From contig NZ_CADFEB010000011.1 of NCBI RefSeq assembly GCF_902833085.1, forward strand, positions 248,001 through 312,000: a stretch of DNA of 64,000 bases, read 5' to 3'. How positions within the stretch are numbered: the first letter of the stretch is position 1; every line of letters begins with the position of its first letter. This document shows positions 6,636 through 64,000 of this stretch, piece by piece. Below the pieces are notes generated by a model. The model worked only from the letters and a program-made list of their open reading frames with translations, was not told the DNA's origin and did no database searches. The position numbers and the translations under genes were made by a program. The DNA is from Burkholderia ubonensis. Lineage in GTDB: Bacteria; Pseudomonadota; Gammaproteobacteria; Burkholderiales; Burkholderiaceae.

Positions 6636-6682
6636 GCCGACGCGCCCCGCGCGGGCGCCGCGCTTCGCGCAATCCGTATCCG

Positions 6683-6713: not shown

Positions 6714-6798
6714 GTGAACGACATACCTCCGCCGCCTGGCAACAGGTGGCTTCGCCCGGGCGCTGCGCGTCCGGGCGCTTTTTCGCCGGCGCGACGGC

Positions 6799-37388: not shown

Positions 37389-37440
37389 CGTTTGCTCCGG
37401 ATTCCTTGCGTCCCTGGGTTCTTGCCGACAGGCATCAAAA

Positions 37441-38226
37441 TCAGTAGTCGATGAGCTGATGCTCGCGCAAATACGCGAGGATCACTTGTGCTTTTTCGAC
37501 CGAACTCCCTTCATTTACGACGTTCCCGCCCCGGCTTTCGGTGGTGGTCGCCGACAGCATCCGGGCATGCCCGGAGCGCTTCTCGGCGGCGGCCAGCTTC
37601 ACCGGCTTGCGTTCGATCGCGCCGACCGTCCACGCGGCCGCGCCGGCGTCCGCGCCGGGCGACACCCGCACCGGGCGCACGCTGCCCGCCTTCAGGCGCG
37701 CATACGCGTAGCGCGGCTGCGCGTTCGCGAGCGGGTGCACGGCGACGACCGCCGGCAGCGCGGCGTCGACGCGCCTGCGCAGCCCTTTCGGCAAGAATTG
37801 CCGGACCGCCGCGCGGCCCGCGTCGATCGTCACGTCGACGGCCGAGCCGACGAGCGGATAGCCGAGCGCCGCGGCGACCTGATACGGCAGCATCCCGGTG
37901 TCGTACGCACCCTCGGCGCGCGTGCCGGTCAGCACGAGGTCGTAGCCTTCGACGCGCGCGGCGAGCGCGCGCGCGGCATCGTCGCCGTCGCGGCAGGTCA
38001 GCACCTCGACCTCCCGCGCGCCGAGCGCCAGGTATTCGGCGAGCGCCGGCGTGATCGGGTCGCCCGCGTGGATCACGTCGAGCTGCGAGTGATGGCGCTC
38101 GGCCAGCGTGCGGCCGAGCTCGAGCGCGGCCGCGTCGTTGCGGCTGTAGCGCGGCGCGCCGCTGACCGGATGCCGGCCGACCGACACCAGCACCGCGATG
38201 CGCTTCAACAGTCGGGGGGCGTTCAT
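37441..38226 (-). CDS. etfB: Electron transfer flavoprotein beta subunit (dimethylglycine branch)
   Basis: A 261-residue ETF beta-like subunit. The alpha/beta nucleotide-binding core includes RIAVLVSVGRHPVSG, LELGRTLAERH, VLTGTRAEGAYDTGMLPYQVA and a divergent recognition loop. A C-terminal extension (residues ~220-261) ends with an EKAQVILAYLREHQLIDY helix. It overlaps etfA by four bases (ATGA). With EtfA it accepts electrons from the dimethylglycine demethylase DgcAB, as in Pseudomonas. Confidence 0.85.
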   Translation of the reverse strand: MNAPRLLKRIAVLVSVGRHPVSGAPRYSRNDAAALELGRTLAERHHSQLDVIHAGDPITPALAEYLALGAREVEVLTCRDGDDAARALAARVEGYDLVLTGTRAEGAYDTGMLPYQVAAALGYPLVGSAVDVTIDAGRAAVRQFLPKGLRRRVDAALPAVVAVHPLANAQPRYAYARLKAGSVRPVRVSPGADAGAAAWTVGAIERKPVKLAAAEKRSGHARMLSATTTESRGGNVVNEGSSVEKAQVILAYLREHQLIDY

Positions 38227-39392: not shown

Positions 39393-39400
39393 CGATTCAC

Positions 39401-41326
39401 TCACTCCAGCGACGCAGCAACGAGTTCGGCCACGTCGAGCACGTCGGGGCGCGGGCCCACGACGCCTTCGAGCATCGCCGTGCAGTTCGGGCAGGCCACC
39501 GCGACCACTTCCGCGCCGATCGTGCGCGCATCGGCGATGCGGATGTCGGGAATGCGCTGCTTGCCGGGGATGTCGGTCAGCGGCGCGCCGCCGCCACCGC
39601 CGCAGCAGCGGCCGCGCATCCCGTTGCGCTCCATCTCGACGACCTGGATGCCGATCGTCTTCAGCAGCTTGCGCGGTGCGTCCGTCTCGCCGTTGTAGCG
39701 GCCGAGATAGCACGGGTCGTGATACGTGGTGCGCTTCTCGCTCAACGCGTCGACCGCCTTGGGCGAAATCCTGCCGCTCTCGGCGAGTTCGGCGAGATAG
39801 GTCGTGTGATGCTTGACCGTCACGCGCAGGCCGAGCGCGCGGTATTCGTTGCGCAGGCTGTGCATCACGTGCGGGTCGGCCGTGACGATCTGCTTGTACG
39901 ACAGCGTCGACAGCGTGCCGATCAGGCGCTTCGCGAGCTGCTGGAACGTCGCCTCGTCGCCGAGACGGCGTGCGACGTCGCCCGTGTCGGTCTCGCCGCC
40001 GCCGAGCACCGCGTAGTCGACGCCAGCGCGGTTCAGCACCTTGACGAGCGCGCGCAGCGTGCGCTGGTAGCGCATGTCGAACGCGCCCTCACCCGCGACG
40101 AACAGCACGTCGACCGGCTTGCCCGGCTGTGCGACCGGCGCGTTCAGGTCCACCGACCAGTCGTAGCGCGCGGCCGTGTCGTAGCCGCCCATCGTGCCCG
40201 TCTCGCGCAGGTTCGCGAGCACTTCCGCGCCCTTGCCGGGCACCGTGCCGTGCACGAGCGTCTGGTTGCGGCGCATGTCGACGATCGCGTCGACGTGCTC
40301 GATCAGCATCGGGCATTCCTGCACGCACGCGCGGCAGGTCGTGCACGACCACAGCGTCTGCGCTTCGATCAGCCCCGACACGATCGGGCCGTTCGGCTCG
40401 CCGTGGTGCTGGCCGACCGCGATGCCCGGCGTCGGGCTGCCCGCATACGCCGCATCGCTGCCGCCCGCCATCCCGACGACGAGATCCTGGATCAGCTTCT
40501 TCGGGTTCAGCGGCTGGCCCGACGCGAACGCGGGGCACGCGGCTTCGCACTTGCCGCACTGCACGCACGCATCGAAGCTCAGCAACTGGTTCCAGCGGAA
40601 CTCGACCGGCTTCGCGACGCCGTATTCCTGCTGCTCGATGTCGGGCAGCTTCAGCGCGGTCGGCGGCGTCGCGGTGCCGTTGCCGGTGAACGATTCGCGG
40701 GTCGCCGCGAAACGCTCCTGGCGCGGGTGGAACGCGAGATGCAGCAGGCCCGCGATCGCGTGCTTCATCGGGCCGCCCTTCGCGGCGCCGAACGTCATCG
40801 CGAATGCGCCGACACCGATCAGCACCGCGCAGAGCACCGCGAACGCGCCGGACATCGCGCCGGCCGGCACCAGCATGTACAGCACGAGGCCGAGCGAGAA
40901 CGAGCCGAGCAGCCACGGCAGCGTATTCCACGGGCCTTTGGACAGCCGCGCCGGCACGTTCCTCGCGTGACGGCGGCGCCACACGAACACCGCGCCGACC
41001 AGCATCGCGAGCGCTGCCAGGAAGATCAGCTTGTCGAGCCACGGCGAGTAGATCGCGAGGCCGTAGTTGACAAACACCAGCGCGAGCGCGGCGATCGCGC
41101 CGCCTGCCGTCGCGACGTGCGTCTTCGCGATGTACGGATCGCGGGCGACCACGTGGTGCAGGTCGACGAAGTAGCGCTTCGGGATCGCGAACAGGTTCGC
41201 GATCCCGAACGCGCCGGGCGCGGTGGCCCGGCCGAGACGCCAATACGACGAGCGCTTCGCGACCGCGAACGCGAGCCCCGCCACCGACAGCCACAGCAAT
41301 GCGGTAATCAGGAAGGACGGATTCAT
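39401..41326 (-). CDS. dgcB: Dimethylglycine demethylase, membrane iron-sulfur subunit
   Basis: A 641-residue protein. Four or five transmembrane segments lie within residues 1-195. Two 4Fe-4S ferredoxin motifs follow (C254, C257, C260, C264 and C328, C331, C334, C338). The C-terminus is heterodisulfide-reductase-like with DPC539, the C574-C575 pair in RCCGGGGG, and CPNC at 612-615. It would link DgcA and the ETF to the membrane. The spacing to dgcA is 4 bases. Confidence 0.92.
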   Translation of the reverse strand: MNPSFLITALLWLSVAGLAFAVAKRSSYWRLGRATAPGAFGIANLFAIPKRYFVDLHHVVARDPYIAKTHVATAGGAIAALALVFVNYGLAIYSPWLDKLIFLAALAMLVGAVFVWRRRHARNVPARLSKGPWNTLPWLLGSFSLGLVLYMLVPAGAMSGAFAVLCAVLIGVGAFAMTFGAAKGGPMKHAIAGLLHLAFHPRQERFAATRESFTGNGTATPPTALKLPDIEQQEYGVAKPVEFRWNQLLSFDACVQCGKCEAACPAFASGQPLNPKKLIQDLVVGMAGGSDAAYAGSPTPGIAVGQHHGEPNGPIVSGLIEAQTLWSCTTCRACVQECPMLIEHVDAIVDMRRNQTLVHGTVPGKGAEVLANLRETGTMGGYDTAARYDWSVDLNAPVAQPGKPVDVLFVAGEGAFDMRYQRTLRALVKVLNRAGVDYAVLGGGETDTGDVARRLGDEATFQQLAKRLIGTLSTLSYKQIVTADPHVMHSLRNEYRALGLRVTVKHHTTYLAELAESGRISPKAVDALSEKRTTYHDPCYLGRYNGETDAPRKLLKTIGIQVVEMERNGMRGRCCGGGGGAPLTDIPGKQRIPDIRIADARTIGAEVVAVACPNCTAMLEGVVGPRPDVLDVAELVAASLE

Positions 41327-41330
41327 GGCG

Positions 41331-43394
41331 TTAGAAATCCTTCACGAGACGCAGCGAGTCGTAGATCGCGCCATGGACGTTGTGCATCGAGATGCAGTCG
41401 CCGACACGGAACAGCAGGAAACGGCCGTTGCCGAGCTCTTCCGACAGGCACGGCTGCGGCTCGGCCGCAAACAGCGTGTGCGGATCGATCTGGCCGCGGT
41501 TCAGCGATTCCGGCTTGAGCTTCCAGTACAGCTCGTCGTTCGGCGACGAACCGTTCTCGATCACCACCTGGTCGACGGCGCGCTCTTCCAGCTCCTCCGT
41601 GTACTCGTTGCGCAGCACGGCGATCTTCTTGCCGTCTTCCTCATACACGCGGTCGAGCATATAGTTCGGCGTCGGGATCACGCCGAGCGCGTACAGGCGG
41701 CGATAGAAGATCGGGAACGTCGTGCCGCCGCAATCGTCGGCCACCTTCACGTCGGGCGTGACGACCTCGACCTTCGAGCCGCGGCTCGCCATGAAGTCGG
41801 CCACACCCGCGCCCGCATGGGTGCTCACGCCGTCGAACAGCAGCACGTTCTGCTTCGGCTCGACCTTGCCGGTCAGGATGTCCCACGAGCTGACGGCCAG
41901 GCCCTCGGCCACGCCCCACGCCGGCACCTGCCACGTGAAGCTGGAGCCGCCCGTCGCGAGCACGACGATGTCCGGCTTCTCGGCCATGATCATCTTCTCG
42001 TCGGCGGCCACGCCGAGGCGGCGGTCGACGCCCAGGCGCTTGGTTTCCATGTCGAACCAGCGGATGATCCCCGACATCTGTTCGCGCTGCGGCGCCTTCG
42101 CGGCGATCATCACCTGCCCGCCCACCTCCGTGTTCTTCTCGAACAGCACCACGTCGTGCCCGCGCAGCTTCGCGACGCGCGCCGCCTCGAGGCCCGCCGG
42201 GCCGGCGCCCACCACCACCACCTTGCGCTTCGGGCCGCGCGACTTCTCGATGATGTGCGGCATCGTCGCTTCGCGCGAGGTGGCCGCGTTCTGGATGCAC
42301 AGCACGTCGAGGCCGTTGTACTGGCGGTCGATGCAGTAGTTCGCGCCGACGCACTGCTTGATTTCGTCCTCGCGGCCGTCGCGGATCTTGATCACCATGT
42401 GCGGATCGGCGATCTGTGCGCGCGTCATGCCGACCAGGTCGATCATGCCGGTGGCGAGCAGGCGCTCGGCCTGGCCCGCGTCGCGGATGCTCTGCGCGTG
42501 CATCACCGGAATCTTCACGACCGACTTGATGCCGGCCGCGAGGTGCACGAACGGCTCCGGCGGCAGCGCCATCGGCGGCATGCAGTTCGCGATCGTGTTG
42601 TGCGTATCCCCGCCGGAACCGACCACGCTCAGGTAGTCGATCAGGCCCGTCTCCGACATCGCCTGCGCGATTTCCTTCAGCGCCTCGTGATCGAGGCCGT
42701 CCTCGTGGAATTCGTCGCCGCACATGCGCAGGCCGACGCAGAAATCCTTGCCGACCGCCTCGCGCACGGCCGTCAGCACTTCGATGCCGAAGCGCAGGCG
42801 GTTCTCGAGGCTGCCGCCCCATTCGTCGGTGCGATGGTTCGAGCGCTTGCTCCAGAACTGGTCGATCAGGTGCTGGTGGGCGGCCGAGATTTCGATGCCG
42901 TCCATGCCCGCGGCCTTCACGCGCTTCGCGGCCGCCGCGAAATCGCCGATGATGCGGCGGATTTCCTCGATCTCGATGATCTTCGCGTTGCCGCGGTGCA
43001 CCGGCTCGCGCACGCCCGACGGCGACATCAGGTGCGGCCAGTGCTCGCCGTGGAACGACGAGCGGCGGCCCATGTGCGTCGCCTGGATCATGATCTTCGC
43101 GCCGTGCTTGTGCATCGTGTCGGCGAGGCGCGTGAGCGGATCGATGATCCTGTCGTTCGACAGGTTCACCGATTTCCACCAGCCCTGCGGGCTGTCGATC
43201 GACACGGGGCTCGACCCGCCGCAGATCGCCAGGCCGACGCCGCCCTTCGCCTTCTCTTCGTAATAGCGGATGTAGCGGTCGCCCGGCAGGCCGCCCGGCT
43301 CGGCATACACCTCCGCGTGGGCGGTACTGACGATCCGGTTGCGCAGCGTCAGCTGGTTCAGCTGCATGGGTTTGAACAGGTGGGGATAACGCAT
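41331..43394 (-). CDS. dgcA: Dimethylglycine demethylase, flavoprotein subunit
   Basis: A 687-residue trimethylamine dehydrogenase-type enzyme. An OYE-like FMN barrel (~1-370) is followed by a FAD/NAD-binding half starting with GAGPAG at 396-401. It oxidatively demethylates dimethylglycine to sarcosine. The iron-sulfur region reads C348-V-G-A351-N-Y-C354 with C366: the second of the four cysteines usual in this superfamily is alanine here. It is the upstream partner of dgcB. Confidence 0.92.
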   Translation of the reverse strand: MRYPHLFKPMQLNQLTLRNRIVSTAHAEVYAEPGGLPGDRYIRYYEEKAKGGVGLAICGGSSPVSIDSPQGWWKSVNLSNDRIIDPLTRLADTMHKHGAKIMIQATHMGRRSSFHGEHWPHLMSPSGVREPVHRGNAKIIEIEEIRRIIGDFAAAAKRVKAAGMDGIEISAAHQHLIDQFWSKRSNHRTDEWGGSLENRLRFGIEVLTAVREAVGKDFCVGLRMCGDEFHEDGLDHEALKEIAQAMSETGLIDYLSVVGSGGDTHNTIANCMPPMALPPEPFVHLAAGIKSVVKIPVMHAQSIRDAGQAERLLATGMIDLVGMTRAQIADPHMVIKIRDGREDEIKQCVGANYCIDRQYNGLDVLCIQNAATSREATMPHIIEKSRGPKRKVVVVGAGPAGLEAARVAKLRGHDVVLFEKNTEVGGQVMIAAKAPQREQMSGIIRWFDMETKRLGVDRRLGVAADEKMIMAEKPDIVVLATGGSSFTWQVPAWGVAEGLAVSSWDILTGKVEPKQNVLLFDGVSTHAGAGVADFMASRGSKVEVVTPDVKVADDCGGTTFPIFYRRLYALGVIPTPNYMLDRVYEEDGKKIAVLRNEYTEELEERAVDQVVIENGSSPNDELYWKLKPESLNRGQIDPHTLFAAEPQPCLSEELGNGRFLLFRVGDCISMHNVHGAIYDSLRLVKDF

Positions 43395-43455
43395 CGCTGG
43401 CGACCTCTGGCGTTCGTGTGTCTCGTGTTGCGGGTGTTGTTCCGTGTCTGCTGTG

Positions 43456-43989
43456 TCAGTGCGCGAGCGGCGACACTTCGAACACGCAGTGGTCGTGGTG
43501 CTCGGCCGCGCACTGCACTTCCTTCGATTGCGAGCGCGGCGCGCCCTTGCCTTCCGGCGTCGTGTCGTTCACCCAGTCCATCGCGCCGGCGAACCAGCCG
43601 GCGAACATGTAGCAGAGCTTGCCTTCCTTGCCGGGCTGCTGGAGCACGAACGACGAGTGGCGCAGCTCGATCTTCGCGCGCGCCGTCGCCGGATCGGCCT
43701 CGATGATCGAGAACAGGCCCCAGCCGCGCTGCGACAGGCGCTTCAGGTAGTGCTCGAACACCGCCATGCCGGTCAGGCCGTGCAGCTTCGCTTCCTTGTC
43801 GCACCAGTGGTACGCGGACTTGTAGCCGGCCTTGTAGAGGATCTCGGCATACGCTTCGACGCCGAGCGCTTCCTCGACGGCGACGTGGTTGTTCGTGAAG
43901 AAGTGGCGCGGCACGTACAGCATCGGCAGCGCGTCGGTGGTCCAGACGCCGGTATCGGGATCGACGTCGATCGGCAGTTGCGGTTGCAT
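43456..43989 (-). CDS. V4R-domain/DUF5943-type protein of the dimethylglycine locus
   Basis: A 177-residue soluble protein. The core resembles the 4-vinyl reductase (V4R) small-ligand domain: PRHFFTNNHVAVEEALGVEAYAEILYKAGYKSAYHWC, then LKRLSQRGWGLFSI and a C-terminal SKEVQCAAEHHDHCVFEV with C and H residues. In Pseudomonas the same small gene sits beside dgcA and is needed for dimethylglycine use. Its molecular role is unknown. The start at 43989 (MQPQLPI) gives the family-length protein, 61 bases before dgcA. Confidence 0.8.
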   Translation of the reverse strand: MQPQLPIDVDPDTGVWTTDALPMLYVPRHFFTNNHVAVEEALGVEAYAEILYKAGYKSAYHWCDKEAKLHGLTGMAVFEHYLKRLSQRGWGLFSIIEADPATARAKIELRHSSFVLQQPGKEGKLCYMFAGWFAGAMDWVNDTTPEGKGAPRSQSKEVQCAAEHHDHCVFEVSPLAH

Positions 43990-44129
43990 CGTGGTGACTC
44001 CGTGAGGAAATTGGCCGCGCGGCTCAGTGCGCAGGCGCGACATCGTCCGCGCGCCCGCGCGGCTTGCGCGGGCACGTCCCGATTTTTTTAATGTTGAATC
44101 GCGGGTGGCGGTTCGGCTCGATGCGGCGC

Positions 44130-45101
<972 letters not shown>

Positions 45102-45141
45102 ATCTGCCTCTCGCTTGAGTCTCTGGTCTTGTCGGTGTCGA

Positions 45142-46416
45142 TCAGTAAATCGGGAAGCGCTCGCACAACGCGAAGATCTCGCGGCGCACGCGCTGCTCGG
45201 TGGCATGGTCGCCCTCCGGGTTCGCGCGCAGCGCGTCGAACACCTCGAGGATCAGGCGGCCGACCTCGCGGAATTCCGCGACGCCGAAGCCGCGCGTCGT
45301 GCCGGCCGGCGTGCCGAGGCGGATGCCCGACGTGACGGTCGGCTTCTCGGTGTCGAACGGGATGCCGTTCTTGTTGCAGGTGATGCCCGCGCGTTCCAGC
45401 GCCTGCTCGACCGGCGCGCCCTTCAGGCCCTTCGGGCGCAGGTCGACGAGCAGCAGGTGGTTGTCGGTGCCGCCGGTGACGAGATCGACGCCGCCCGCCT
45501 TCAGCACTTCGCCGAGCGCCTGCGCGTTCGCGAGCACGTTGTCGATGTAGGTCTTGAAGTCCGCGTGCAGCACTTCGCCGAACGCGACGGCCTTGCCGGC
45601 GATCACGTGCATCAGCGGGCCGCCCTGCAGGCCGGGGAACACGGCCGAGTTGATCTTCTTCGCGATGTCCTCGTCGTTGGTCAGCACGAAGCCGCCGCGC
45701 GGGCCGCGCAGCGTCTTGTGGGTGGTCGACGTGACGACGTGCGCGTGCTCGACCGGATTCGCATGGCGGCCCGCGGCGATCACGCCCGCGATGTGCGCCA
45801 TGTCGACCATCAGCTTCGCGCCGACGCTGTCGGCGATCGCGCGGAAGCGCGCGAAGTCGAGCTTGCGCGGATACGCGGAGAAGCCGGCGATGATCAGGCT
45901 CGGCTTGTGCTGCTGAGCCAGTTCCTCGACCTGGTCGTAGTCGATCAGCATCGTGTCGCGGCTCACGCCGTACTGCACCGCGTTGAACCACTTGCCCGAC
46001 AGCGCCGGCTTCGCGCCGTGCGTCAGGTGGCCGCCCGCGTCGAGCGACATGCCGAGCACCGTGTCGCCAGGCTTCGCGAGCGCGAGCATCACCGAGCCGT
46101 TCGCCTGCGCGCCCGAGTGCGGCTGCACGTTCGCGTAGCCGGCGTTGAAGATCTGCTTCACGCGCTCGATCGCGAGCGCCTCGACTTCATCGGCGAATTC
46201 GCAGCCGCCGTAGTAGCGCTTGCCCGGATACCCTTCCGCGTACTTGTTGGTCAGCACCGAGCCCTGCGCTTCGAGCACCGCGCGCGACACGATGTTTTCC
46301 GACGCGATCAGCTCGACCTGCGACTGCTGTCGCTCGAGTTCCTTCAGGATGGCGCTGCGGACCGGCGCGTCGCGCTCGGCGAGGGGCTGCGAGAAGAAAG
46401 ACTGGGTGTTCGACAT
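45142..46416 (-). CDS. glyA: Serine hydroxymethyltransferase (catabolic copy)
   Basis: A 424-residue PLP enzyme interconverting glycine and serine with methylene-THF. The PLP lysine lies in [15 protein letters not shown], with QPHSGAQAN and [13 protein letters not shown] nearby. As first gene of the gbcA/dgc side and adjacent to gbdR, it is the regulon copy that turns betaine-derived glycine into serine; a housekeeping copy is presumed elsewhere. The start at 46416 (MSNTQSFF) lacks a strong ribosome site. Confidence 0.93.
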
Positions 46417-46865
46417 AGAGCATCCGTGACGAAGAATAGTGGGCGGCAATCAATGCTTGAGGCCCGCCGCGCCTGGGTTTCCGGCATGTCCAGGGCATGG
46501 CTGCCGACGGCTCTATTCTTGTCGTTCGGATTTTCGGTCGATTGATGAATTTAGACGCGTTCTTTGCCTTTTCCGCCATGCGCGTCCGTTTTATACAAGT
46601 GACCGATCGTGCTTTTTCGGATCGCCAAGCATCGCCGCCGCAGCGCGGCAATGGCCGGCAGGCACTGCCGCGGTGCCGCCGCCGCCCGTCGCGGGTGCAG
46701 CCGGTCACGAATTCGGTGCAGTGCAGCAACGCACTTGAGCCAAATCAACGTATGTAGCTAGGGTTTCGCCGTATGGCACGCTTGTTGCGCTCGCTCACAC
46801 AATACCGCAGCCCGATTTTGTGCCTCGGGCCATAGCTATTAGCAGAGATTCTAGGAACGCTCCCC
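46417..46865. other. Divergent glyA-gbdR control region
   Basis: About 450 bases. The plus side holds a sigma54 promoter at 46774-46789 for gbdR and, about 80 bases before its predicted start, a GTGC-N6-GCAC dyad (46721-46734). The minus side must hold the GbdR-dependent glyA promoter; I could not fix its boxes. No glycine riboswitch-like sequence was recognised. Short plus-strand frames here are not convincing genes. Confidence 0.5.
46774..46789 (+). promoter_or_regulatory. Sigma54 (RpoN) promoter of gbdR
   Basis: TGGCACG-N4-TTGCG with the invariant GG (46775-46776) and GC (46787-46788) exactly ten bases apart, matching the -24/-12 consensus at every key base. Predicted transcription start is near 46800, giving a 66-base leader to the gbdR ATG. 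Confidence 0.75.
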
Positions 46866-47894
46866 ATGTCGCCCGACCGCACAGCGTCGCTGTCTCATTT
46901 CGCGTTCATGCCGTTGCCCAACTTCACGATGATCGCGTTCACGAATGCGATCGAGGTGCTTCGGATGGCGAATTACCTGAGCGGCCAGCCGCTCTACCGC
47001 TGGTCGGTCATCAGCCCGGAGGGCGGCCCGGTCACGGCGAGCAACGGCCTGACCGTCGACACCGGCCCGGCCGAATGCGCGGGGCAGCCGGACATCGTGT
47101 TCGTGTGCGGCGGTGTCGACGTGCAGCGCGCGACCACCGCCGCCCACCTGTCGACGCTGCGCCGCTTCGCGCGTTCGGGCATTCCGCTCGGCAGCCTGTG
47201 CACGGGCACCTATGCGCTCGCGAAGTCGGGCCTGCTCGCGGGCTACGCGTGCGCGATCCACTGGGAGAACATGTCCGCGCTGAAGGAGGAGTTTCCCGAC
47301 ACGCGCTTCCTGAAGGAGCTGTTCGTGATCGATCGCGACCGCATCACGTGCACGGGCGGCGTCGCGCCGCTCGACATGATGCTGAACCTGATCGCCGCGC
47401 GCGTCGGCACCGCGCGCGTCACGCAGATCGCCGAGCAGTTCATCGTCGAGCACGTGCGCGACACGAGCGCGCAGCAGCGGATGCCGCTCGTCGCGCGGCT
47501 CGGCTCGGCCAACAAGTCGCTGTTCGAAGTGATCTCGCTGATGGAGAACAACATCGAGGAGCCGCTGTCGCGCGAGGAGCTCGCGCGCCTCGCGAACATG
47601 TCGCAGCGGCAACTGCAGCGGCTGTTCCGCGAGCATCTCGGCATGACGCCGACACACTACTACCTGACGCTGCGGCTGCGCCGCGCACGCGAGCTGCTGC
47701 TGCAGACCGACATGTCGATCATGCACATCACGATGGCGTGCGGGTTCCAGTCGGCGTGCCATTTCAGCAAGAGCTACCGCGACGCGTTCGGCGTGGCGCC
47801 GACGCGGGAGCGCCGCAAGCAGGTTGCGCCGCTCGCGCAGGGGGCGGGCGGCGGCGCGTCGGCCTTCCCGGCGTCGCTCGCGATGCATGCGTGA
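46866..47894 (+). CDS. gbdR: GATase1-like AraC-family activator of betaine catabolism
   Basis: A 342-residue regulator with an N-terminal DJ-1/PfpI-like ligand domain (FAFMPLPNFTMIAFTNAIEVLRMANY to about residue 200) and a C-terminal AraC domain (LARLANMSQRQLQRLFREHLGMTP, ACGFQSACHFSKSYRDAFGVAP). In Pseudomonas, GbdR binds betaine or dimethylglycine and activates gbc, dgc, glyA and transporter genes. It is divergent from glyA and homologous to CdhR at 12701. A bidirectional terminator follows. Confidence 0.92.
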   Translation: MSPDRTASLSHFAFMPLPNFTMIAFTNAIEVLRMANYLSGQPLYRWSVISPEGGPVTASNGLTVDTGPAECAGQPDIVFVCGGVDVQRATTAAHLSTLRRFARSGIPLGSLCTGTYALAKSGLLAGYACAIHWENMSALKEEFPDTRFLKELFVIDRDRITCTGGVAPLDMMLNLIAARVGTARVTQIAEQFIVEHVRDTSAQQRMPLVARLGSANKSLFEVISLMENNIEEPLSREELARLANMSQRQLQRLFREHLGMTPTHYYLTLRLRRARELLLQTDMSIMHITMACGFQSACHFSKSYRDAFGVAPTRERRKQVAPLAQGAGGGASAFPASLAMHA

Positions 47895-54577: not shown

Positions 54578-55768
54578 TCACCCGCCCTGGTTTTCGCGGA
54601 TCACCGCCGCGGCGGCCGCCTCGGCCTCGCTCGCGACGCCGTCGTGCACGCGTGTACTTTCGGCCGGCGTCGGCGGCTCGCCGTCGAGCGCGTGCCCGCC
54701 GCGCTCGTGCGTATCGACGCTCGCCCGCATCGACAGCCCGACCCGCAGCGGATGCGCGGCGAGGTCGGCCGGCTCGATCGAGATCACCACCGGCACGCGC
54801 TGCACGACCTTGATCCAGTTGCCCGCCGCGTTCTGCGACGGCAGCATCGAAAACGCGCTGCCCGTCCCTGCCGAGAACCCCTGCACGCGGCCGCGATAGA
54901 CGACCCGCGCGCCGTAGATGTCCGACACGATCTCGACCGGCTGCCCGACGCGCATGTGCCGGATCTGCCCCTCCTTGAAGTTCGCCTCGACCCACAGGCG
55001 CTTCAACTGCACGATCGACATCAGCGGCACGCCGGGCCCGACCTGCTGCCCGACCTGCACCGCGCGCTGGCCGACGGTGCCGTCGACCGGCGCGACGATC
55101 GTCGTGCGCTTCAGGTTGCGGTACGCGAGCTTGAACTGCGCGGCCGCCTGCACGACGGCCGGGCTCTCGTCGACCGGCAGCTTGCTGCCGAGCGCGCGCG
55201 CCGCGTCGAGCTGGGCCTGCGCGGCCGCGAGATTCGCCTGCGCGCCGGCGGCCGCCGCGCGGGCGCGCGCGAGCTCCTCCGGCGCGACGATCTCGACCGA
55301 TGCGCCCGCGCGCGCGGCGAGCGCGCGCTGCGCGAGCGCAAGATCCGCGCGCCGCGCATTCACCGCCTCCACGTACATCGTGTTCGAGATCTTCGCGTTC
55401 GCTACCTGCCGCACCGCCTGCGCGAGCTGCGCCTTCGCCTGCGCGAACGCGACCGACGCCTCCGTGTCGTCGAGCCGCACGAGCACCTGCCCGGCGCGCA
55501 CCGGGTGCGTGTCGCCGGCCAGCACGTCGATCACCGTGCCCGGCACCTGCGCGGAGATCTGCACGATGCTGCCGGCCACGTAGGCGTCGTCGGTTTCCTC
55601 GTAGTAGCGGTCGCGGATCAACCACACCGCGAGCCACGCGACGGCGGCCAGCAGCAAGGCCGCGAAGAACACGAGAAAGCGCTTGCGGCGCGTCGCGCGC
55701 CGTGCGTCGAGCGCGGCATCGGCCTGCGATGCCGGCATCGGAGCGGTGTGAAGGTTGTCGTGGTGCAT
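54578..55768 (-). CDS. EmrA/HlyD-family periplasmic adaptor of the rhamnolipid operon
   Basis: A 396-residue membrane fusion protein. After a cytosolic tail, one membrane segment (~31-50, FLVFFAALLLAAVAWLAVWLI) leads to YYEETDDAYVAG, the EmrA signature. A long alanine-rich coiled-coil hairpin spans ~110-200, and beta-barrel and lipoyl halves contain APVDGTVGQRAVQVGQQV. It would couple the DHA2 pump to the NodT channel. It starts directly at the nodT stop and is the last gene of the operon. Confidence 0.88.
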   Translation of the reverse strand: MHHDNLHTAPMPASQADAALDARRATRRKRFLVFFAALLLAAVAWLAVWLIRDRYYEETDDAYVAGSIVQISAQVPGTVIDVLAGDTHPVRAGQVLVRLDDTEASVAFAQAKAQLAQAVRQVANAKISNTMYVEAVNARRADLALAQRALAARAGASVEIVAPEELARARAAAAGAQANLAAAQAQLDAARALGSKLPVDESPAVVQAAAQFKLAYRNLKRTTIVAPVDGTVGQRAVQVGQQVGPGVPLMSIVQLKRLWVEANFKEGQIRHMRVGQPVEIVSDIYGARVVYRGRVQGFSAGTGSAFSMLPSQNAAGNWIKVVQRVPVVISIEPADLAAHPLRVGLSMRASVDTHERGGHALDGEPPTPAESTRVHDGVASEAEAAAAAVIRENQGG

Positions 55769-57376
55769 TCAGTCGCTTTGCGTGACGGTCAAACGGTCGT
55801 GCTGGAACATCGGATTCGACGGCGCGTCGGCCAGGCTCGGGGCCACCGGCGTTGCGCGCACGGTCGCCTTCCGGCTCGCGGATGCGGCGCCGCGTTTCGC
55901 CGGCGCGTTCGGCGTCGCGCCCGCGTCGAAGCCGCCGCCGAGCGCGCCGATCAGCCCGACGCGCAGCGTGCGCTGCTTGCCGAGCAGGTCGATCAGCTGC
56001 GCGCGCTCGTCGATCAGCGTCAGCTGCGCGACGTCGACGTCCTTCTGCATCAGCAGCCCGCGCCGGTGGCGGTCGGTCGCGATCTGCACGATCTTCTGCG
56101 CGGCCGCCACCGCATCCTGCTGCTGCGCAATGAGCGTCTGCGAGGTCTGCAGCGACGTGACGAGCTGCGCGACCTGCCCGAGCGCGTCGTCGACGGTCTT
56201 GTTGTACAAGCCGATCGCGACGTCCGCCTGCGCGACGTCCGCGCCGAGCTTCGCCTTCAGCCGCCCGCGATCGAAGATCGGCAGCGACACCGCCGGGCCG
56301 ACCGAGCCCGCCAGCGCGTCGCGCGAGAACAGCGACGCGGGCGTCAGCGCGAACACGCCGCCGAGGCCGATGAGGTTCACGTCCGGAAAGAACTGCGCGC
56401 GCGTCGAATCGGCGTTCGCATACGCGGCCTCGACGCGCAGCCGCGCGGCGACGATGTCGGGCCGGCGGCCGAGCAGGTCGGCCGGCAGCCGTGCGGGCAG
56501 CGCCGCGTCTCCGAACTTGCCGACGTGGGGCCGCTGCAGCGCGAGGCCGCGCTCCGGCCCGCGCCCCGACAGCACGCCGAGCTGCAATTGCGCGAGCTTG
56601 ATCTGCTCGTCGTTCAGCGCGATCTGCCCGAGCAGGCGGCTGCGCTTGATCGACGCGTCGCTCGCGTCGTACGCGTTGTCGATGCCGCGCGCGGTGCGCT
56701 CGCGCAGCACCGTCGTGACCCGCTGGCTGACCTTCAGCTTTTGCTGCAGCAGGTCGCGCGCCGCGTAGGCCTGGTCGAGCTGGCAGTAGACGGCGACGAT
56801 CGCGGTCGACATCGCAAGCCGCACCTGGTCGGCCTCGACGCGCGCCGCGTCGCGCAGCGACATCAGGCTCTTCGTCGCGGCCTTGTTTCTGCCCCACAGG
56901 TCGAGCTGGTAGTTCAGTGCGACGAACACCGACGACGGCGACGCGGCCGGATCGCCGAAGATCTGCACCGGCACCTTGTAGCCGCCGATCGTCACGTCGG
57001 CGACGTCGCCCGGCTGCGGCATGCGTGCGCGGTTGACTGTCGCGCCGGCGGTGCCGGTCAGCCCGGTCAGCGCGTCGAACTGCTGCAGCTGCGCCTGCGC
57101 GATCCGCAGCCGCGCCTGCGCGACCTGCAGGTCCGGATTCTGCTGCAGCGCCTCCGCGACCAGCTGATCGAGCTGCGGGTCCTGCAGCTGCGCGACCCAG
57201 TCCGGCGCGGGCCATGCGCCGGCCGCGCCGGGGCCGGCCGTGCGCGCGAGCGCGTCGTCGGCCGGCGCGCGCAACGACAGCGACGGCAGGAACCCCGACG
57301 GCGCGCAGCCGCTCAACGCCAGCAACGCAGCCAGCGCGCCGGCCGTCCAGCCGGTCATCCTCGTCGAACCCCGCAT
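55769..57376 (-). CDS. NodT/OprM-type outer membrane efflux lipoprotein of the rhamnolipid operon
   Basis: A 535-residue outer membrane channel. Residues 1-~25 are a lipoprotein signal with lipobox LALSGC. Two repeats of the TolC-like coiled coil follow (VAEALQQNPDLQVAQARLRIAQAQL, LNYQLDLWGR, then LLGRRPDIVAARLRVEAAYANAD). The start at 57376 has GAGG seven bases upstream; an ATG at 57388 overlapping the rhlC stop (ATGA) is also possible. Gene position indicates export of rhamnolipids or another toxic amphiphile. Confidence 0.87.
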   Translation of the reverse strand: MRGSTRMTGWTAGALAALLALSGCAPSGFLPSLSLRAPADDALARTAGPGAAGAWPAPDWVAQLQDPQLDQLVAEALQQNPDLQVAQARLRIAQAQLQQFDALTGLTGTAGATVNRARMPQPGDVADVTIGGYKVPVQIFGDPAASPSSVFVALNYQLDLWGRNKAATKSLMSLRDAARVEADQVRLAMSTAIVAVYCQLDQAYAARDLLQQKLKVSQRVTTVLRERTARGIDNAYDASDASIKRSRLLGQIALNDEQIKLAQLQLGVLSGRGPERGLALQRPHVGKFGDAALPARLPADLLGRRPDIVAARLRVEAAYANADSTRAQFFPDVNLIGLGGVFALTPASLFSRDALAGSVGPAVSLPIFDRGRLKAKLGADVAQADVAIGLYNKTVDDALGQVAQLVTSLQTSQTLIAQQQDAVAAAQKIVQIATDRHRRGLLMQKDVDVAQLTLIDERAQLIDLLGKQRTLRVGLIGALGGGFDAGATPNAPAKRGAASASRKATVRATPVAPSLADAPSNPMFQHDRLTVTQSD

Positions 57377-57384
57377 CGCCGCCC

Positions 57385-58323
57385 TCATCCTTGCCGCACG
57401 TGCGGCACCCGCGCGGCCAGCCGCGGACGCGTGCGCTCGAGCGGGCCGAGCCGGCCGAACAGCCCGTCGGCGATGCCGAGCACGATGCCGCCGAGCTTCG
57501 CGCGCTTGTCGCGCTCGACGAGCGCGATCTGCACGATCTGCCACAACGTCAGCAGGTTCGGCACGATCGCCACCGGAAAGCGCAGGCCGTACTGGATGCC
57601 GAGCTGCACGGCGTTGCGCGCGCTGTAATAGCGCCGCTGCCACGGGTGATTCATCGACGTCATCGCGAAAGGGCCGAGCGCATGGCGCCGCTTCGCGCCG
57701 ATCCGGTGCGTCAGCACCAGCGACGGCACGACGTAGAGCGGCACGTTGCGTGCGAGCGCGCGGAAGCAGTATTCGGTGTCGACGTGATCGATGAAGAGCG
57801 TCTCGTCGAACGGGCCGAGCGTGTCGTACGCGTCGCGCGATACGACGCAGCCCGACGAGATCAGGAACGCGCAGCGCTGCATCGCGGCGCCCGGCTCGAT
57901 GTTCAGGCGGCGCAGCGTGATGCCGTTGGTCGACAGCTCCGGCAGGAAGCTGCGCGCGTTCTCGTCGAAGATGCGCGGGCCGGCCAGGAACGCGCGCGGC
58001 GCGAGCCCCGCGCAGACGTCGCGCATCGCCGGAAAGTACGCGTCCGGCGCCGTCGAATCCTGGTCGAACAGCGCGACCGCGTCGACCCGCTCGCGAAACA
58101 GCGCGGCGAGCCCCGCGTTGAACGCGCCTGCGATGCCGCCGCGATTGCCGTGATGCAGCAGCGCGATGCCGTCGCGCGCGCAGGCGTCGCGGGCCCGCGC
58201 GTCCGGCTGCGGCGAGTTGTCGACGACGAGCAGCGCGTCGCTCGCGCGCCGCAGCGCGTCGAGCGACGCGAGCTGTGCGTCGGTCGGGTGGTAGAGAATC
58301 ACGAGCGCGCCGAGTGCCGTCAT
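57385..58323 (-). CDS. rhlC: Rhamnosyltransferase 2 (GT2 family)
   Basis: A 312-residue glycosyltransferase of the A fold. It opens LGALVILYHPTDAQL, with donor-site VVDNSPQP, NRGGIAGAFNAGL and the LFDQDST acidic motif, then SSGCVVSRDAYDTLGPFDETLFIDHVDTEY. It adds a second L-rhamnose to mono-rhamnolipid. It stands between the DHA2 pump and NodT genes, an arrangement known from Burkholderia rhamnolipid clusters. Dirhamnolipids are therefore the expected product. Confidence 0.88.
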   Translation of the reverse strand: MTALGALVILYHPTDAQLASLDALRRASDALLVVDNSPQPDARARDACARDGIALLHHGNRGGIAGAFNAGLAALFRERVDAVALFDQDSTAPDAYFPAMRDVCAGLAPRAFLAGPRIFDENARSFLPELSTNGITLRRLNIEPGAAMQRCAFLISSGCVVSRDAYDTLGPFDETLFIDHVDTEYCFRALARNVPLYVVPSLVLTHRIGAKRRHALGPFAMTSMNHPWQRRYYSARNAVQLGIQYGLRFPVAIVPNLLTLWQIVQIALVERDKRAKLGGIVLGIADGLFGRLGPLERTRPRLAARVPHVRQG

Positions 58324-58345: not shown

Positions 58346-59944
58346 CTAATGACCGAAGGACGCCGCCGCGCCCCGCTTCGGCCGGGTGAGCCACATCATC
58401 GCGGCGAGCACGAGACACGTCATGCTCGCCATCCAGAACATGTCGCCCGTCGCCATCATGTACGCCTGCTGCTGCACGATGCGGTGCAGCGTCGTCAGTT
58501 CGCGCGTGCCGTCGATGCCCATCGCGTTGAGCGTGTGCACGAAGCGCTGCGTGTTCGCCGCGGCCTGCGTGACCGACTGCGACACGACGTCGTAGTGCCA
58601 GGTCGCGCGGTTGTCCCACAGCGTCACGCTCATCGCGGTGCCGAACGCGGCCGACAGCGTGCGCAGGAAGTTCGACAGGCTCGACGCGGCGGCGAGCTTG
58701 TCGTCGGGGATGCGCGACAGCGTCGCCGCGGTCAGCGGAATGAAGAAGCACGGCAGCCCGATGCCCTGGATCAGCCCCGGCGTGACGATCTGCGCGAACG
58801 TCATCTTCAGCGTGAAGTGCGCGTCCCACGCGAGCACGCCGGCGAACACGAGAAAGCCGAAGGTCGCGAGCACACGCGCGTCGAAGCGGTGCGCGTGCAG
58901 CCCGACGAGGATCGAGAACACCAGCGCGAGGATGCCGAGCGGCGCGGTCGCGAGCCCCGCATGGAACGCGTTGTAGCCCATCACCGCCTGCAGCCACAGC
59001 GGGAACACCACGCCGACCACCGAGAAGCTCATCATCCCGAGCGAGATGATCAGCACGCAGAACGAGAACGTGCGGTCGCGGAACAGGCTCAGCTCGACCA
59101 CCGGATGCGCTTCGCCCGCTTCCCAGATCAGCAGCGACACGATCGCGATGCCCGCGACGATCGCCAGCGTGACGATCAGCGGCGAGCCGAACCAGCCTTC
59201 GTCGTGGCCGAGGTCGAGCACCGCCTGCAGCGCGCCGACGCCGATCACGAGCAGCACGATGCCCGGCACGTCGACCGGGCCGGCCGCGCCGCGCTGCGCG
59301 TCGGGCCGCAGCATCGCGGTGCAGACCGCGAACGAGAAGATGCCGATCGGCAGGTTGATCAGGAAGATCCACGGCCACGAGAAGCTGTCGATGATCCAGC
59401 CGCCGACCACCGGCCCGAAGATCGGCGCGAGCAGCACCGTCATCGCCCACAGCGCGAGCGCGACCGTGCGCTTCTCGGGCGGGAACGCGCGCAGCAGGAT
59501 CGTCTGGGACAGCGGCACCATCGGCCCGGAGCACAACCCCTGCAGCGCGCGGCACACGACCAGCACGTGCAGGTCGCGCGCGAGGCCGCACAGCAGCGAC
59601 GTCAATGTGAACAGCAGCACCGCGCCGACGAACAGCCGCAGCTCGCCGATGCGGCGCGCGAGCCAGCCGGTGAGCGGCACCGCGATCGCCGCGGCGACCG
59701 AATACGAGCTGATCACCCAGGTGCCCTGGCTGTTCGACACGCCGAGACTGCCCGAGATCGCCGGCACCGCGACGTTGGTCACGGTCGAGTCGAGCACCTC
59801 GATGAAGGTCGCGAGCGACAGCGCGAACGTCAGCAGCGCGAGGCGCGCGCCGCGCAGCGGGCGCGCGGCCTGCGCTGCGACCTGCACTGCGGCTGGGGTG
59901 GTCGGGGCGGCGCTCGCGGCGTGCCGCGTCGAAGCGGTGCTCAT
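58346..59944 (-). CDS. DHA2-family (EmrB-like) efflux transporter of the rhamnolipid operon
   Basis: A 532-residue major facilitator transporter with about 14 helices. It opens with LATFIEVLDSTVTNVAVPAIS, the DHA2 motif D1; GWLARRIGELRLF is motif A, and GPVVGGWIIDSFSWPWIFLINLPIG is motif C. The start at 59944 overlaps the rhlB stop (ATGA). With the EmrA-like adaptor and NodT channel it forms a tripartite exporter, presumably for rhamnolipids. Confidence 0.9.
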   Translation of the reverse strand: MSTASTRHAASAAPTTPAAVQVAAQAARPLRGARLALLTFALSLATFIEVLDSTVTNVAVPAISGSLGVSNSQGTWVISSYSVAAAIAVPLTGWLARRIGELRLFVGAVLLFTLTSLLCGLARDLHVLVVCRALQGLCSGPMVPLSQTILLRAFPPEKRTVALALWAMTVLLAPIFGPVVGGWIIDSFSWPWIFLINLPIGIFSFAVCTAMLRPDAQRGAAGPVDVPGIVLLVIGVGALQAVLDLGHDEGWFGSPLIVTLAIVAGIAIVSLLIWEAGEAHPVVELSLFRDRTFSFCVLIISLGMMSFSVVGVVFPLWLQAVMGYNAFHAGLATAPLGILALVFSILVGLHAHRFDARVLATFGFLVFAGVLAWDAHFTLKMTFAQIVTPGLIQGIGLPCFFIPLTAATLSRIPDDKLAAASSLSNFLRTLSAAFGTAMSVTLWDNRATWHYDVVSQSVTQAAANTQRFVHTLNAMGIDGTRELTTLHRIVQQQAYMMATGDMFWMASMTCLVLAAMMWLTRPKRGAAASFGH

Positions 59945-61245
59945 GCGCCTGCCGCGGCGACGGCCGCCGGCGCGGGCTGCCCGGCCATGCGGCCCGGCTC
60001 CGGCGCGAACCGCTCGATGAAATCCGCCGCGCGCTCGCACCCGTCCGCCGCGCCGGTGATCCGCGCCCGCGCGCGCGCGCCCTGCGCCGCGAACCCGGGA
60101 TCGTCGAGCACGCGCCGCAGCGCCGCGCCGAGCCGCGCGCCGTCGACCGGACCGTCGATGCGCACGCCGCAGCCGCTCTGCGCGACGCGCTGCGCGTTGT
60201 CGAAGTGGTCGTGCGCGAACGGCGTCACCACCTGCGCAATGCCGGCCTCGTAAGCGAGCGCCGCGGTGCCGATGCCGCCGTGGTGCACGAGCGCACGGCA
60301 ACGCGGCAGCAGCGTGCGCATCGGCACGAAGCGCCGCACGAGCAGGCGGCCGTCGCGCGGCGGCGCATCAGCCGACGCATCCGCCGGCGTCAGCAGGATG
60401 CCGCGCGCGCCGGTGGCGCGCAGCGCTTCGCCGACCGCGCGCGCATACGCGGCGTGATCGACGAGCGTGGAGCCGGCGGTGAACACGACCGGCGGCTCGC
60501 CCGCCGCGAGGAACGCATCGAGCTCGGCATCGTCGTCGCGCTCGCCGACGTCATTGAACAGCGGAAAGCCGCTTTGCAGATGCCGCGCGGGCCAGTCCGG
60601 CTGCGGCGGCGCGAACCAGTCGGGAAACAGGCACAGCACGCCGTCGGTCGAGTGCAGCCAGCGGCCGAGCACGCGCCGCGCGGGCGGCAGCCCGAGGTCC
60701 GCGCGCACGGCGTTCAGCGCGGGGCCGCACACGCGATCGAGCACGAGCCGCTCGATCAGCGTCATCAGCGCCGACTTGACCGGCAGCGGCCAGCGCGCGG
60801 GGATCGTCAGGCGCGGGTGCGTCGGCGGCACATGCGCGGACAGGAGCGTCGACGGCGACACCTGCACCGACACATACGGGGTGCCGTGCAGCTCCTGCAT
60901 GAAGCGCGCGGAGAACGCCCACAGCGTGCCGACGAGCACGGTGTCCGCGTCGGTCAGCGCGCGCAGCGCGTCGTAGTGCGGCTTCAACACCGGCGCGATC
61001 ACCTGCCACAGCGTGCGGAACGACGTACGCGGGTTCCACAGCGCCGGATTCGCCATCGCCGCGTCGTATTCGGCAGCGGTGCCGACCGGCACGAACGCGA
61101 AGCCGAAACGCCGCGCGGCCGCCTCGAACGGCGGATGCGTGCAGAACACGATCGCGTGGCCGCGCGCCGCAAGCGCGCGCGCGATGCCGAGCAGCGGATG
61201 CACGTCGCCCGCCGAACCGATCGCGGTCACGATTACCTTCGCCAT
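59941..61245 (-). CDS. rhlB: Rhamnosyltransferase 1 (GT1 family)
   Basis: A 434-residue GT-B glycosyltransferase. The N-terminus VIVTAIGSAGDVHPLLGIARALAARGH is the acceptor-side signature, and the C-terminal donor motif is HHGGIGTAALAYEAGIAQVVTPFAHDHFDNAQR. It transfers L-rhamnose from dTDP-rhamnose to the hydroxyalkanoyl lipid made by RhlA, giving mono-rhamnolipid. The start at 61245 has a GCGAGG ribosome site 17 bases after the methyltransferase stop. Confidence 0.92.
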   Translation of the reverse strand: MAKVIVTAIGSAGDVHPLLGIARALAARGHAIVFCTHPPFEAAARRFGFAFVPVGTAAEYDAAMANPALWNPRTSFRTLWQVIAPVLKPHYDALRALTDADTVLVGTLWAFSARFMQELHGTPYVSVQVSPSTLLSAHVPPTHPRLTIPARWPLPVKSALMTLIERLVLDRVCGPALNAVRADLGLPPARRVLGRWLHSTDGVLCLFPDWFAPPQPDWPARHLQSGFPLFNDVGERDDDAELDAFLAAGEPPVVFTAGSTLVDHAAYARAVGEALRATGARGILLTPADASADAPPRDGRLLVRRFVPMRTLLPRCRALVHHGGIGTAALAYEAGIAQVVTPFAHDHFDNAQRVAQSGCGVRIDGPVDGARLGAALRRVLDDPGFAAQGARARARITGAADGCERAADFIERFAPEPGRMAGQPAPAAVAAAGA

Positions 61246-61262
61246 CGCGCGCCTCGCGGGAG

Positions 61263-61832
61263 TCAGTAGAAGCCGGGGATCAGCGCCGCGACCTCGCGGC
61301 GGTACTGCGCGTAGGCCGCCCCGAAATGGCCGGTCAGCCAGCTCTCCTCGACGCGCACCTTGTAGGCGAGCGATGCGAACACGAGCAGCACGCCGAGCAC
61401 GCCGCGCCACTCGCCGCCGAGCAGCGCGGCGCCGGCGAGCGCGAGCAGGCAGCCCGTATAGATCGGATGCCGAACGAGTGCGTACGGGCCGCTGCGAACG
61501 AGCTCGTGGCCGTCCTTCAGCGTGACCGACACGCTCCAGTTCGTGCCGAGATGCCGCCGCGCCCACACGGAGAACAGCAGCCCGGCGATCAGCACCGCGA
61601 GGCCGGCTGCCGACTGCAGGCCGAAACGCTGCCAGTCGGGCGTGAGCGCCTGCCACGTCGGGTCGGGCAGGATGATCAGCGCGCCGCCGACGATCAGCGG
61701 AATCGACTGCAGCGTGCGCGAGCGCGACGCCTCCTTGCGCACGGTCGTCTTCACGGCCTTCGACGTGGCGATCCAGTATGCGAGCCACGCGGCCCACGGA
61801 ACGACGATGGCGATGCTCTGAACGATATTCAC
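61263..61832 (-). CDS. Isoprenylcysteine carboxyl methyltransferase-family membrane protein in the rhamnolipid operon
   Basis: A 189-residue integral membrane protein with about five hydrophobic segments (starting IVVPWAAWLAYWIA). The C-terminal ICMT/PEMT core has G115-P116-Y117, R121-H122-P123 with Y125, and E162-E163 near the end, the residues that bind S-adenosylmethionine and water in this family. The start is GTG at 61832, 47 bases after rhlA. Family members methylate carboxylates (or amines) of lipids at the membrane. Position between rhlA and rhlB suggests methyl-esterification of HAA or rhamnolipids. This is inference, not shown by sequence. Confidence 0.88.
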   Translation of the reverse strand: MNIVQSIAIVVPWAAWLAYWIATSKAVKTTVRKEASRSRTLQSIPLIVGGALIILPDPTWQALTPDWQRFGLQSAAGLAVLIAGLLFSVWARRHLGTNWSVSVTLKDGHELVRSGPYALVRHPIYTGCLLALAGAALLGGEWRGVLGVLLVFASLAYKVRVEESWLTGHFGAAYAQYRREVAALIPGFY

Positions 61833-61879
61833 GGCTGGCCTGCCTCGTGTGGAGTGGAGAAACGGATGGCTGCGCGGCG

Positions 61880-62782
61880 TCACGACGACAGCGCGGGCCA
61901 CGGCGCGCTCACGCATGCCTGCGATACGTCGGGCGACTCGCCGGCCGCGGCCTGCGCGGCGCCGCAGAGGAAGCCGAGCAGTTCCGCGCGCGTGCTCTCG
62001 CGCTGCGCGCGGCCTTCGATGTCGAGGAAATGCCCGGCGGCCGGAATCGTCGCGAAGTGCGCGCGCGGCACGTGCGCGGCGAGCCGGCGGACTTCGGCCG
62101 GCGTCGTGTATTCGTCGAGCGCGCCGTTGACGAACTTCAGCTCGCAGCGGATGTTCGAGAACTCGCTCAGGTAGCGCTCGGGCTGCAGCGACAGGATCTG
62201 GTCGACGTGGAACGCGACCTGGTCCTGCTCGTCGCGCGGCAGCCGCGTCAGGTAGCGGTAGTTGTACAGCTTCATGATGCGCGGCAGGTAGCGGCCCACG
62301 GTGTCGTTGAGCAGCTGCGCGGCCTTCAGGTTCTCGCCGGCGGCGATGTGGTCGCGCGCGCGGGTCACGTAGTCGACCATCGCGTCGTTGAGGAACGGCG
62401 AGAACGAGCAGATCACCGCGCGCCGCACGCTCGGGCAGCCGCGCGCGAGCGCGAACAGCGACGCGACGCCGCCCCACGACACCGACACGAGGAACGTGGG
62501 CGCGAAGCGCTCGACGAGGTGCTGCAGGATCTCGACCTCGTCGTCCTTCGTCAGGACGAAGCAGCCCGGATTGTGCTGGCGCGACTGCCCCGCATACGGC
62601 AAGTCGAAGCAGATCGTGTTCATCCGCTCGCCGAGGTACTGGACGGTCTGCCCGAACGACGCCGTGGTCGCGAGCGCGCCGTTGACGAGAATGGCCGTGT
62701 CGAAAGCCGGATCGAAGATCTGGCGCTCGACGTATACCTTCAGGCCATTCGGCAGCGGGACCACGTGTTTTTCCGTCGGCAT
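61880..62782 (-). CDS. rhlA: HAA synthase (3-(3-hydroxyalkanoyloxy)alkanoate acyltransferase)
   Basis: A 300-residue alpha/beta hydrolase-fold acyltransferase that joins two 3-hydroxyacyl chains to form the lipid part of rhamnolipids. The catalytic triad S102 (VSVSWGG), D223 (NGALDEYTT) and H251 (AAGHFLD) falls at the same residue numbers as I recall for the Pseudomonas enzyme. The start at 62782 follows CGGGAGA. It is the first gene of the seven-gene operon, downstream of a 729-base control region shared with betI. Confidence 0.93.
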   Translation of the reverse strand: MPTEKHVVPLPNGLKVYVERQIFDPAFDTAILVNGALATTASFGQTVQYLGERMNTICFDLPYAGQSRQHNPGCFVLTKDDEVEILQHLVERFAPTFLVSVSWGGVASLFALARGCPSVRRAVICSFSPFLNDAMVDYVTRARDHIAAGENLKAAQLLNDTVGRYLPRIMKLYNYRYLTRLPRDEQDQVAFHVDQILSLQPERYLSEFSNIRCELKFVNGALDEYTTPAEVRRLAAHVPRAHFATIPAAGHFLDIEGRAQRESTRAELLGFLCGAAQAAAGESPDVSQACVSAPWPALSS

Positions 62783-63511
62783 CGTCGTTCTCCCGGTGGA
62801 TTCGGCGTCTCGGCATGGTTGCTTGCTGCACGCGCACACGTGCGCGACGGCGACGCGCCGGCCCCCCCGGCGCGAGCCTCGATCGCGCTGTCGCCGACGC
62901 ACTGCGTCAGGTTCGGCTGCGTCGATTGATTCTCGTCAATGCGGCGCAATGTTAATACGCGTCAAATTGATTGCTCAAGCCGCACCAAATATCCCCTCTA
63001 CTCAGGTAGGAAATACGGCGGATTCAAATTTTTTCCGCATTTTTTATGGTATGCGGAACGGTACGATGCTGCCGGAAATCGTTTCCATTGCAGCCGCACC
63101 AGGTCTAAACAAACGCCAATATTTATTAATATTCAACCATTTACAACGTTTCAAACGAGTTTCAGAAACGCACCTCATCCGCCCCTCCCCCATTCGAATG
63201 TTTCTTCGTTTTCCGCGGCGCCGCTAAAATCGGCCGCGTCAACATTCTTTCATTGAGAAGGGATCCGAAAATATCCCGCCATTCGTTAACTATCTCGTTC
63301 AATTCAGAATCCTGTTTTAAACAAACTTCGCTTTATTCAACAGTCTTACGATTTCGTTTTCCGCAACTGCACATGACTTGCGCCGCATCGGTCGCCCGCG
63401 GCTCCCTCGCGAATCCCTTCCGACCCCGGTTTTTTATTGATTGAACGTTCAATAAAAAACCGCTAAGCTCTCGGCTTCCATCCATCCGCCGTCCGTGCAC
63501 AGGGAGTCGCG
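62783..63511. other. Divergent rhlA-betI control region
   Basis: About 730 bases, markedly AT-richer between 62940 and 63460 than elsewhere in the window. The betI side holds the BetI operator (63428-63461). On the rhlA side a weak -35/-10 pair can be drawn on the minus strand (TTGAGC at 62978-62973, TATTAA at 62957-62952, 15-base spacer). I see no convincing LuxR-type box and no credible gene. Confidence 0.5.
63428..63461 (+). promoter_or_regulatory. BetI operator
   Basis: A perfect 14-bp palindrome ATTGAACGTTCAAT (63440-63453), embedded in a second inverted repeat GGTTTTTTATT (63428-63438) and AATAAAAAACC (63451-63461). The core closely resembles the known enterobacterial BetI site. It lies 58 bases before the betI start, positioned to autorepress the bet operon until choline is present. 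Confidence 0.8.
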
Positions 63512-64000
63512 ATGCCGAAAGTGGGAATGCGGGAAGTCCGCCGCGCGCAACTGATCGACGCGACGCTGCGCTCGATCGACGAAGCGGGCCTGCCCGGCAC
63601 GACGCTCGCGTCGGTTGCGCAGCGCGCGAAGATCTCGACCGGCATCGTCAGCCACTACTTCGGCGACAAGGACGGCCTGCTCGAAGCGACGATGCGGCAC
63701 GTGCTGCGCGACCTATGGTCGGCCACCACGCGCCGCCGCGTCGCCGCGCGCAAGGACCCGCGCGCCCGGCTGCGCGCGATCGTCGCCGCGAACTTCGACG
63801 ACACGCAGATCAGCGCGCCCGTGATGAAGACGTGGCTCGCGTTCTGGTCGCAGAGCATGCACGAGCCGGCACTCAAGCGCCTGCAGCACGTCAACACGCG
63901 GCGCCTCTATTCGAACCTGTGCGCGGAGTTCGCGAAAGCGCTGCCGCGCGCGAAGGCGCGGGAAGCCGCCAGCGGCCTCGCCGCGCTGATCGACGGCCTG
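63512..64000 (+). CDS. betI: TetR-family choline-responsive repressor, N-terminal 163 residues (runs off the window)
   Basis: The visible part begins [19 protein letters not shown], the BetI signature, with a TetR helix-turn-helix ([28 protein letters not shown], residues ~31-58) and ligand-domain segments [18 protein letters not shown] and RRLYSNL. BetI represses betIBA, the choline to betaine genes presumably continuing beyond 64000. The start at 63512 follows AGGGAG. About 30 more residues are expected. Confidence 0.93.

Follow-up and report, generated by a model that had tools for sequence, protein, structure and literature searches.

The window analysed here, a 64,000-nucleotide stretch of a Burkholderia ubonensis contig, carries a rhamnolipid (rhl) operon on its minus strand. 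The first gene, rhlA (61880..62782), encodes a 300-aa protein of the alpha/beta-hydrolase fold (Abhydrolase_6 above cut-off) that, with its conserved neighbours, we take to be the HAA synthase. After a gap of 47 bases (61833-61879) follows rhlM (61263..61832), encoding a 189-aa membrane methyltransferase of the ICMT/PEMT family by its Pfam matches, and after a further 17 bases (61246-61262) the ATG of rhlB (59941..61245; 434 aa), named as the first rhamnosyltransferase gene on the basis of its GT28 N-terminal and EryCIII-like C-terminal domains and its conserved neighbours. The next gene, encoding a 532-aa MFS exporter of the DHA2/EmrB type (58346..59944; TIGR00711 above cut-off), has its ATG at the very end of rhlB, the two genes overlapping by four bases. 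It is followed by rhlC (57385..58323; 312 aa), for the second rhamnosyltransferase (TIGR01556, 219.3 bits for a cut-off of 200.55), by a gene for a NodT-type outer-membrane efflux protein (TIGR01845 above cut-off; 55769..57310 in the stretch scanned, the true start lying somewhat upstream in an open frame that reaches 57643) and by a gene for a 396-aa periplasmic adaptor of the EmrA/HlyD type (54578..55768; HlyD_3 above cut-off), whose best NCBIfam matches are EmrA models scoring below their cut-offs. All of these genes are on the minus strand. An Rfam scan of the window at the gathering score returned no match to a described RNA element, and a second rhlA in the genome was rejected, since the search for it gave only one other match, a weak one (9e-4).

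Upstream of the operon and divergent from it lies betI (63512-64000, truncated where the window stops; both NF001978 and TIGR03384 score above cut-off), for a choline-responsive repressor that is part of choline metabolism and probably has no connection with rhl. An inverted repeat is located upstream of betI (63430-63459), with the core ATTGAACGTTCAAT at 63440-63453. When 26 intergenic regions, that of the window among them, were aligned, conservation was at least 95% at every core position but one, and the repeat is likely to be the BetI operator. Elsewhere in the window, the region 36147-46449 bears genes for a Rieske oxygenase, an FMN/FAD oxidoreductase, a DUF3483/Fe-S protein and a serine hydroxymethyltransferase, and is adjoined by a gene for an AraC-type regulator (46866-47894). 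We take these genes, near betI and rhl, to resemble a glycine betaine/dimethylglycine degradation cluster.

The rhlM frame runs uninterrupted for 189 codons from a GTG (61832-61830) to a TGA (61265-61263). As 28 of the 33 relatives listed begin with VNIVQ or MNIVQ, the GTG start is supported. A chance open reading frame was ruled out by conservation, namely by the existence of relatives and by dN/dS values. RhlM scores 54.1 bits against the Pfam ICMT model (PF04140, cut-off 24) and 53.8 bits against PEMT (PF04191, cut-off 25). An earlier note on this DNA had described an intact ICMT/PEMT-family gene between rhlA and rhlB at these two spacings, which agrees with our analysis; the note did not mention the strand. 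Against the NCBIfam model for protein-S-isoprenylcysteine O-methyltransferase (NF040696) RhlM reaches 83.4 bits, below the cut-off of 160, and hence is a member of the family and not that enzyme itself. Three further PF04140 matches above cut-off are found in the same genome, on contigs C1, C5 and C9 (loci L069, L066 and L067).

Relatives of known structure were found by sequence in the PDB: 4a2n (1.3e-12), 5v7p and 5vg9 (3-4e-5) and, more weakly, 8xku. RhlM contains an RHP motif at residues 121-123 and EE at 162-163, so that the histidine is residue 122 and the first glutamate residue 162. RHP and EE are kept in all 24 rhl-located sequences compared, and the letters NRHPEE are common to 29 of the 31 sequences compared; however, six of the seven compared ICMT relatives outside rhl clusters also keep RHP and EE, and these residues thus mark the family and not the substrate. 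The AlphaFold model of RhlM is helical and of moderate confidence (mean pLDDT 73.9, with values below 50 at 98-110 and 112-120, among others), with long helices at 3-24, 36-54, 72-95, 121-139 and 142-170.

A search of contigs with RhlM, which reaches close relatives only, yielded 34 loci, in 32 of which (L002-L033) rhlA, rhlM and rhlB lie in this order on one strand; the remaining two, from a Comamonadaceae MAG (L034) and an Acidobacteria MAG (L035), have no match to rhlA or rhlB at E<=1e-15. Among the named carriers are B. cepacia, B. cenocepacia, B. lata, B. ambifaria, B. stagnalis, Paraburkholderia bannensis and Caballeronia udeis. We also surveyed 299 family genomes, an even sample of a larger group. 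At E<=1e-30, 45 of them have an RhlM match; the gene lies between rhlA and rhlB in 41, the genome of the window included (30 in L036-L065 and 11 in L072-L082), and outside rhlA/rhlB in four (G048, G072, G075 and G171). rhlA is present in 43 of the 299 genomes at the same threshold, and 41 of these 43 have rhlM. The earlier note had asked for such a survey of co-occurrence and had presented the gene as inserted into the operon. The latter view is not upheld: rhlM is no oddity but a usual part of rhl operons in many Burkholderia and related genera, both in our survey and in the account of Liu et al. (PMC11069360), who report it in one of the two Burkholderia subclades (it is absent from the other but for a single case) and in 92% of the Paraburkholderia species that have an rhl cluster. 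Among the Burkholderia genomes of the survey, 36 of 41 have rhlA at E<=1e-30, a lower share than the 95% of species given in that paper.

The contig search and the survey overlap in genomes, and their counts are therefore not to be summed. Together they comprise 73 rhl loci, not all of them distinct; none of the 73 departs from the common order and strand, and rhlM is separated from rhlB by 17 bases in 52 loci and by 16 in 12. The relatives located between rhlA and rhlB are full-length or nearly so and 62-93% identical to RhlM. The two survey genomes with rhlA and without rhlM are G083, which has two rhl clusters, as do B. thailandensis and B. pseudomallei according to PMC2804600, and G052, which has one. 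A remnant of rhlM was sought in these clusters (L087-L089), and no RhlM match was obtained at E<=1e-3; G083 has two weak matches (27-31% identity) elsewhere than in its rhl clusters, and G052 has none. Of the six members of the genus in which rhlM is missing, five are without rhlA as well, and within this sample and genus G083 alone has an rhl cluster without rhlM. Some clusters are rearranged: in L081 rhlC comes after the efflux genes, and in L082 it directly follows rhlB, with no MFS match in the stretch fetched. In L075 the rhlA match (6051-6948) consists of two overlapping pieces in different frames, from decay or an assembly error, with rhlM and rhlB alongside free of stops.

The four relatives outside rhl clusters (L083-L086) are 41-54% identical to RhlM, and none of their genomes matches rhlA at E<=1e-30; we took them as paralogs. 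A family scan of 20 neighbouring proteins from L083, L085 and L086 placed the L083 relative next to genes for MdoG and LtrA, that of L085 near genes for a sigma factor, an Nramp protein and a squalene/phytoene synthase, and that of L086 near sigma-factor and Nramp genes. In a FastTree of 31 sequences, in which the RhlM of Paraburkholderia kirstenboschensis F3 is not included, the 24 rhl-located proteins are set apart from the seven others with a branch support of 0.943 (a value of 0.816, seen after re-rooting, belongs to another node). Identity distances of RhlM correlate with those of RhlA (0.977) and RhlB (0.98) over 40 loci, a correlation that species distance alone could produce; within Burkholderia (27 loci) the correlation is 0.75 with either protein. 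On the strength of this co-divergence and of the separation in the tree, rhlM seems to have been inherited together with its operon. The dN/dS of the window gene against 29 relatives, the equal-length sequences of L002-L033 with three shorter ones left out, ranges from 0.22 to 0.45. One locus, L058 (genome G205), has the RhlA (92%) and RhlB (90%) nearest to those of the window, yet its RhlM is only 88% identical and those of L022 and L024 are closer (93%), a mismatch that may reflect recombination inside the operon.

The function of such a gene is already published and the system is a known one, as the earlier note had suspected might be the case in some Burkholderia. Liu et al. (2024, ISME J; PMC11069360) named rhlM a gene annotated as ICMT downstream of rhlA in P. 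kirstenboschensis F3 (its RhlM is RW095_02150) and mapped RhlM across Burkholderia sensu lato. Deletion of rhlM in F3 abolished the rhamnolipid methyl esters and complementation restored them, and D3-methionine labelled their methyl group. The authors give H122 and E162 as the SAM-contact residues, numbers identical to those of the window protein, and tie methylation to stronger surface activity, swarming and an antifungal effect (PMC11069360). Because of the shared residue numbers, the gene order and the clade account of that paper, the window gene is likely an ortholog of the published RhlM and an ordinary member of the known rhlM system. Judged from its sequence and context, it is very probably rhlM, the rhamnolipid carboxyl O-methyltransferase gene.

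The earlier note had proposed that SAM-dependent methylation yields neutral methyl esters of HAA or of rhamnolipids. The rhamnolipid part is borne out by the deletion, complementation and labelling experiments in F3, whereas the HAA part is disfavoured by the F3 rhlB deletion mutant, in which HAA was present and methylated HAA was absent (PMC11069360). The position of rhlM, second in the operon and between rhlA and rhlB, could be read as placing the enzyme on HAA, or on mono-rhamnolipid, and not on the finished di-rhamnolipid, but the order of reactions is not set by the order of genes. The authors place methylation last, after rhamnosylation, and inferred Rha-Rha-C14-C10 as the main acceptor (PMC11069360). 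Since the F3 mutants put methylation after rhamnosylation, methyl-HAA is an unlikely product, and we consider it very improbable that the window enzyme methylates HAA or mono-rhamnolipid instead of di-rhamnolipid. It is a somewhat different proposal, improbable in our opinion, that the acceptor range is broader in this Burkholderia lineage than in P. kirstenboschensis and extends to mono-rhamnolipid or HAA as well; were it so, the operon would yield surfactants graded from charged to neutral, as a mixture.

The similar scores of RhlM with the PEMT and ICMT models, and the existence of four relatives outside rhl clusters, might suggest an enzyme that acts on an unrelated lipid, such as a phospholipid, a quinone or a prenylated compound, and that sits in the operon by chance. 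This is extremely unlikely given that 41 of the 45 relatives at E<=1e-30 lie between rhlA and rhlB, that the other four form a separate group in the tree and that deletion of the published rhlM has the phenotype described above (PMC11069360). Nor did we find any sequence sign that rhlM is decayed or silenced in this strain: the intact frame, the dN/dS range and the conserved residues all speak against decay, and such a state of the gene is hardly credible.

Methylation of the finished di-rhamnolipid would then complete the following pathway. RhlA would make HAA, RhlB would add the first rhamnose and RhlC the second. RhlM, as an inner-membrane enzyme, would take in the lipid carboxylate through a lipid-facing tunnel and transfer the methyl group of SAM to the carboxyl of the di-rhamnolipid, giving a nonionic rhamnolipid methyl ester, which presumably is exported by the MFS, adaptor and NodT proteins of the same operon, a route that we infer. 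Activity and substrate of RhlM in this strain are predictions. Methylation takes away the negative charge of rhamnolipids, and methyl esters are to be expected from many Burkholderia rhlA-rhlB operons, beyond the free acids known from Pseudomonas.

The rhl clusters of B. thailandensis, B. pseudomallei and Pseudomonas aeruginosa have rhlA, rhlB and rhlC in common with the window and, unlike it, no methyltransferase among their listed ORFs (PMC2804600). For B. thailandensis, whose cluster also shares EmrB-, NodT- and EmrA-type genes with the window, the ORF list comprises rhlABC, ORFs for transport or efflux and a single hypothetical protein; no word beginning with 'methyl' appears in the text of that paper (PMC2804600). 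This is consistent with the statement in the earlier note that the B. thailandensis clusters have no such gene. The ICMT structures 4a2n (M. acetivorans) and 5v7p/5vg9 (eukaryotic, 5vg9 being named as T. castaneum in PMC11069360) belong to the same family as RhlM by sequence, although the eukaryotic ICMT methylates prenylated proteins, unlike RhlM (PMC11069360). The RhlM of B. lata (L005) is 89% identical to that of the window, and the genes of the two loci follow each other alike from rhlA through to the adaptor; it comes from another species, and the rhamnolipid methyl ester from B. lata cited by Liu et al. (PMC11069360) would be a product of this locus. The closest parallel of demonstrated function is the RhlM of P. 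kirstenboschensis F3, which like the window protein belongs to the ICMT family, is encoded downstream of rhlA and has H122 and E162; it comes from the genus Paraburkholderia, and the activity shown there (PMC11069360) is predicted for the window protein. The window locus adds one further genome to the distribution already mapped in that study (PMC11069360).
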